From IMG/VR virus record IMGVR_UViG_3300021962_000139, positions 1 through 54,163 of that record: 54,163 bases of DNA; one strand, 5' to 3'. Below, in pieces: positions 50,303 to 50,374 of this stretch (positions are counted from its first letter, which is position 1; every line of letters begins with the position of its first letter). The notes under the pieces are model-generated. The model saw only the letters and a program-made list of their open reading frames with translations. It was not told the DNA's origin and did no database searches. The DNA comes from a virus. Position numbers and translations under genes: made by a program.

Positions 50303-50374
50303 ATGTGGACAAAACCAGCTGCAACTGAAATGAGATTCGGTTTCGAAGTAACTATGTACGTATGCAACAAGTAA
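50303..50374 (+). CDS. pqqA: PqqA, peptide precursor of the cofactor PQQ
   Basis: 23 codons encoding [19 protein letters not shown] and then VCNK. This is the PqqA consensus from end to end: MWxKPA at the N-terminus, R-x-G-F-E-V-T-M-Y in the core, and a short basic end. Glu15 and Tyr19, whose side chains are joined by the radical SAM enzyme PqqE (with PqqD) to build pyrroloquinoline quinone, are at the canonical positions and spacing. AAGGAG lies nine bases before the ATG. No pqqB-E gene is in the window, so the peptide would feed the host pathway. The gene is alone between two terminators behind the capsid gene. Confidence 0.93.
   Translation: [23 protein letters not shown]

Follow-up and report, generated by a model that had tools for sequence, protein, structure and literature searches.

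A phage-encoded PqqA peptide gene forms a self-contained cassette and is carried widely by phages of methylotrophs

The window analyzed here, which is the whole 54,163-base stretch of IMG/VR record IMGVR_UViG_3300021962_000139, belongs to a virus of the HTVC023P/027P-like lineage. Genes for the capsid, portal, and terminase proteins occur in the same record, which agrees with the claim of a preliminary description that its pqqA gene is phage borne, and pqqA is flanked by the capsid gene on one side and further phage genes on the other (Table 1). A carbamoyltransferase-like gene, possibly serving DNA or surface modification, is located at 40424-41461.

Table 1. Features of the window at and near pqqA
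Feature	Position	Strand	Remark
Terminase large subunit	42368..43897	+	Marks the record as phage
Portal protein	43981..46515	+	Phage gene
Major capsid protein	49243..50157	+	5' neighbor of pqqA; lineage marker and pqqA-independent bait
Terminator-like hairpin and T run	50174..50207	+	3' of the capsid gene; splits it from pqqA
Imperfect dyad CTCATGGTTTTCTTTAT	50216..50232	.	Putative regulator site; core 50217-50228, 10.2 bits against the host-derived matrix
TACAAT	50254..50259	+	Weak candidate -10 hexamer, inferred from sequence
Shine-Dalgarno AAGGAGA	50291..50297	+	5 bases 5' of the ATG; same spacing in other viral copies
pqqA (PQQ precursor peptide)	50303..50374	+	23 codons and stop, Glu15 and Tyr19; translation and profile matches
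Terminator-like hairpin and T run	50393..50415	+	Directly 3' of pqqA

The window peptide scored 42.4 bits (E value, 6e-11) against the Pfam PqqA model PF08042, with a cutoff of 21.1, and 45.1 bits against the NCBIfam equivalog TIGR02107, with a cutoff of 20, which amounts to about twice the curated cutoff in both models, and it is the only PqqA match in the whole virus record. The E-x3-Y spacing is present, with Glu15 and Tyr19 being the residues that become PQQ. The earlier reading of a complete PqqA with both residues and a Shine-Dalgarno sequence is thus borne out. Judged from the sequence, pqqA has the features of a translated gene, including a start codon, a Shine-Dalgarno sequence, an intact frame, and selection on the peptide. 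PHROGs contained no family for the window PqqA, and a PDB search with the peptide gave no match. A chance ORF is excluded because the same peptide is encoded 3' of the capsid gene in 15 of 16 members of one capsid clade and is under purifying selection, as described below. The locus encodes a full-length phage PqqA.

The terminators on both sides of pqqA and the gene orientation indicate that it is a stand-alone unit. Terminators were found 3' of 52 of 141 viral pqqA copies (37%), compared with 66 of 1,420 control ORF ends (4.6%; P = 5e-27), and the median gaps around the 141 copies were 108 bases upstream and 65 bases downstream, with 58% of the copies not being codirectional with both neighbors. 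In relatives without pqqA, the capsid terminator is followed straight by the next unit or by other cargo, such as an endonuclease-like ORF (assigned by eye) in L349. Expression with the late genes, as proposed in the preliminary description, was rejected as the default reading, since pqqA has a terminator between it and the capsid gene, a terminator of its own, and its own upstream region with a host-type site. No significant sigma-70 site was found in the window pqqA upstream region. The gene is a self-contained cassette outside the late capsid operon.

Motif discovery, run separately on the upstream regions of host and viral pqqA genes, returned the same 12-mer from both sets, which reads on one strand as TCATGATTTTCC in hosts and TAATGATTTTCN in viruses and reached 13.6 and 10.7 bits, respectively, compared with about 7 bits in shuffled sets. 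At 8 bits or more, the host matrix matched 92 of 151 viral pqqA upstream regions (61%) and 129 of 2,000 control ORF upstream regions (6.4%; P = 2e-59), with the controls being unmatched for intergenic position and kinship among the sequences inflating the P values. When extended, the motif forms an imperfect inverted repeat, CTMATGA-TTT-TCATTAG, located about 90 bases upstream of the pqqA start in viruses and about 110 bases upstream in hosts. Most viral copies of the motif point in one direction and most host copies in the opposite direction, which the inverted repeat would explain. In Methylophilus methylotrophus, four of the six exact genome-wide matches to the dyad lie about 115 bases 5' of pqqA genes, and another lies 5' of histidine kinase and NarL-type response regulator genes (L423 2306-4296), an arrangement seen in two Methylophilus genomes. 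This two-gene pair is a possible regulator of pqqA. When the window is aligned with the best host copy, the match is confined to the 21 bases 5' of the gene, the gene itself, and the terminator region, indicating that the site was kept where the surrounding sequence diverged. The dyad looks like a host-type pqqA control site present in the phage cassette. Its frequent occurrence upstream of both viral and host pqqA genes would also suit a DNA sponge, in which the site, multiplied in many phage genome copies, titrates a host regulator and the peptide is secondary. However, the peptide itself is under purifying selection, and about 39% of the viral copies have no strong site, which makes such a role very unlikely.

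When 50,697 phage records were searched in six frames with the window peptide (E values up to 10), PqqA was found in 12 of them, comprising 9 methylophage isolates, 1 environmental podovirus (spring phage), and 2 records labeled as Acinetobacter phages. The isolates, namely, Venkman, P19250A, MEP301, MEP401, MEP402, and four Melnitz phages, represent five lineages with one PqqA each. All five isolated methylophage lineages found thus carry pqqA, a count that covers the isolates found and leaves out MEP431 to MEP434, which are known by name. The isolates have known methylotroph hosts, consistent with the link to methylotrophy suggested earlier. In the isolate records, pqqA is either unannotated or, in the Melnitz phages, overlain by a hypothetical ORF on the opposite strand, so that gene callers do miss it as had been predicted, and within the open-license literature, there is no discussion of pqqA in the publications describing Melnitz and MEP401/402. 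The Acinetobacter phage matches were rejected as viral pqqA genes because they are embedded in a bacterial pqqA-pqqBCDE run; the records labeled Acinetobacter phage MD-2021a (L008) hold ordinary bacterial chromosome genes, including pqqABCDE. Such records reveal that misassigned cellular DNA exists in phage collections. For the window, an origin as misassigned cellular DNA or a chance ORF is refuted by the position of pqqA between the capsid gene and further phage genes, by its presence in sequenced isolates, and by the selection and profile scores.

A PqqA DNA pattern matched at least 119 stretches in IMG/VR, and among the matches listed, each is a short PqqA frame and nearly all have a purine-rich Shine-Dalgarno sequence just 5' of it. 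A second pattern, in which codons 15 and 19 were left free, also matched at least 119 stretches; Glu15 and Tyr19 were kept in 119 of 119 matches listed, and Tyr19 was encoded by TAT in 52 and by TAC in 52 of the 104 distinct sequences among them. The commonest Methylophilaceae peptide exactly matches 35 of 165 viral PqqA peptides. These observations bear on the possibility that the phage peptide is a decoy or brake that ties up PqqD/PqqE or the peptidase, so that PQQ synthesis is lowered or redirected. Resembling the substrate, such a short peptide could compete with host PqqA, but at least an occasional loss of Glu15 or Tyr19 would then be expected, whereas both PQQ-forming residues are invariant among the viral matches listed and many of the phage peptides have the same sequence as host PqqA. 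A decoy is therefore improbable. An identical copy of the window peptide in a Flavobacteriaceae bin (L257) was rejected as evidence of a host, since the contig is phage-like and its pqqA lies beside phage-like genes; the contig probably comes from a methylophage and was misbinned. No bona fide host was consequently found to encode the exact window peptide. Overall, pqqA is carried very widely by phages of methylotrophs and is usually unannotated.

The ratio pN/pS was 0.13 over all viral pqqA copies, a value biased downward because the search pattern had several residues fixed, and 0.086 over 18 copies from capsid-related phages. At the codons left free by the pattern, it was 0.24 overall and 0 at positions 15 and 19. 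The window capsid protein is 64 to 70% identical to those of Pelagibacter phages (HTVC023P and HTVC027P) and cyanobacterial phages, none of which were among the PqqA matches in the 50,697 phage records. As phages of nonmethylotrophs have the same body plan, pqqA is an addition in the window phage, whose own PqqA and kin point to a methylotroph as the probable host. Using the capsid protein as a pqqA-independent bait, 80 relatives were retrieved, 7 of which have pqqA in the stretch examined, and a search of 21 longer records of pqqA-less relatives in whole found PqqA in none of them (0 of 21, some being possibly fragments). Most capsid relatives are without pqqA, which indicates that phages of this body plan can do without the gene and counts against the auxiliary role proposed below. 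The capsid tree places the window in a supported clade (99/91) of 16 members, 15 of which have pqqA, mostly about 150 to 190 bases 3' of the capsid gene, and on this tree, the presence of pqqA requires 6 changes, compared with 19 when the labels are shuffled. Related phages thus have the peptide beside the capsid gene, as the preliminary description had suggested looking for; two of the outcomes that it named as speaking against PqqA did not occur, namely, a lack of profile matches and absence from all related phages.

The same data bear on whether pqqA is a mobile host gene fragment that was captured repeatedly without benefit to the phage. Scattered host pqqA copies are numerous, which would make capture easy, several gains or losses are needed on the capsid tree, and the slot 3' of the capsid gene holds different sequences in pqqA-less relatives. 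A useless passenger is nonetheless hard to reconcile with an intact frame in all pattern matches listed, a Shine-Dalgarno sequence in nearly all of them, the low pN/pS, the retention in the capsid clade, and the occurrence of pqqA in phage lineages that are unrelated but infect the same host group, and we regard it as improbable. A different PqqA type, IRLGFE[VI]TMYF, was found in six records (L010, L021, L025, L030, L037, and L079). In four of these (L021 2246, L025 5947, L030 603, and L079 1840), the gene lies 5' of a homologue of window ORF 51593, and in L021 and L025, it is 3' of a homologue of window ORF 51113. The other type and other slot in these related genomes suggest a separate acquisition in phages of another PQQ-making host; a pattern scan for this type in 398 genomes of the phylum gave no match.

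The PQQ pathway is present in Methylophilaceae genomes, which contained 1 to 12 pqqA copies each (17 genomes sampled, 2 of them from other groups), in agreement with the 3 to 12 copies reported previously (PMC4109929), with the other pqq genes being single. A point against the role proposed below is that PqqA was reported to be not strictly required for PQQ in Methylorubrum extorquens, which was explained by extra copies (PMC6520949). In 36 pqqA-bearing viral records, neither PqqE above the cutoff nor a PQQ alcohol dehydrogenase was found (0 of 36 for each; host controls scored). The phage pqqA has no adjoining pqqBCDE and its phage no PqqE, which is not decisive for its identity as PqqA because the extra host pqqA copies are also away from pqqE.

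We consider it probable that pqqA serves methylotroph phages as a self-contained auxiliary metabolic cassette, which supplies the substrate only, relies on host enzymes, and has its own host-type control. In this proposal, which for the isolated phages involves obligate methylotrophs of the Methylophilaceae as hosts, the phage would contribute only the ribosomal substrate of PQQ synthesis and increase the PqqA dosage for host PqqB to PqqE. Host PqqD/PqqE would form the cross-link between Glu15 and Tyr19 in the phage-made peptide, PQQ would be completed by host proteins, and the cofactor would load the host methanol dehydrogenases. Since PqqA is used 1:1 per PQQ and PqqB to PqqE are catalytic, PQQ output is increased or maintained most cheaply by extra precursor genes, as hosts do with their several pqqA copies. 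At the cost of 23 codons, PQQ output might be raised or held once host genes are shut down or degraded. The cassette would be transcribed from its own promoter, probably under host pqqA control via the common dyad and not in the late operon, and methanol burning would probably be kept up during infection to the benefit of the phage. On balance, we slightly favor a broader view in which methylophages repeatedly took up a substrate-only pqqA with, or under selection for, the host control site, so that the copy obeys the cofactor-demand circuit of the host instead of the phage program and constitutes a near-general trait missed by annotation.

Cyanophage photosynthesis genes such as psbA provide phage copies of a rapidly consumed host product and sustain host energy metabolism during infection. 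The pqqA cassette is similar in both respects, but it encodes neither an enzyme nor a structural subunit; its product is the peptide from which a cofactor is made. Lambdoid phage morons are single cargo genes between phage genes with their own terminator and control region, an organization that pqqA shares, whereas its cargo is metabolic and its control site matches that of the host gene. Compared with host Methylophilaceae PqqA, the phage peptide has the same length of 23 residues, the same Glu15 and Tyr19, and a nearly identical sequence, with one peptide being common to hosts and phages; stand-alone extra copies and the upstream dyad are also shared, but the phage copies reside in lytic-type genomes without pqqBCDE. 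The statement that no settled description of pqqA in such a phage existed was too strong. The available text on the Lake Baikal methylophage population VP_266 reports PqqA together with a viral methanol dehydrogenase and proposes support of methanol oxidation (PMC7678222), and a reservoir survey lists viral pqqA, pqqE, and pqqD (PMC13188868). VP_266 resembles the phages described here in its virus-borne PqqA and proposed role, but it is one population in which PqqA is paired with that enzyme, whereas the 36 records here lack such an enzyme, and the same text describes neither selection nor a control site (PMC7678222). Within the open-license literature, four aspects appear to be new, namely, how broadly pqqA occurs among unrelated methylophages, the evidence for selection, the layout of the cassette, and the control site shared with hosts.

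The cassette would represent metabolic support by a virus that contributes nothing but the peptide consumed in a cofactor pathway, with all enzymes coming from the host. In abundant marine and freshwater methylotrophs, methanol carbon enters through PQQ methanol dehydrogenases, so that one-carbon cycling would be affected if phages controlled PQQ. The isolates with pqqA make the proposed role directly testable, pqqA is a candidate sequence marker for assigning phages to methylotroph hosts, and the common dyad provides a starting point for studying how the many pqqA copies of Methylophilaceae are regulated.

Farther downstream in the window, a conserved double-pseudoknot leader RNA is predicted at 50454-50526, 5' of the next structural ORF (ATG at 50534). 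Its helices are P1 (CTGGG/CCCAG), P2 (GCTTATC/GATAAGC), and P3 (GCATAC/GTATG), the last adjoining the Shine-Dalgarno sequence. The element matched no family in Rfam 15. Among 47 distinct copies from related phages, the two P1 strands pair perfectly in all 47, across four sequence types with no cross-type matches, and P2 and P3 are also far longer than in swapped controls. The leader is possibly a new cis-regulatory RNA.
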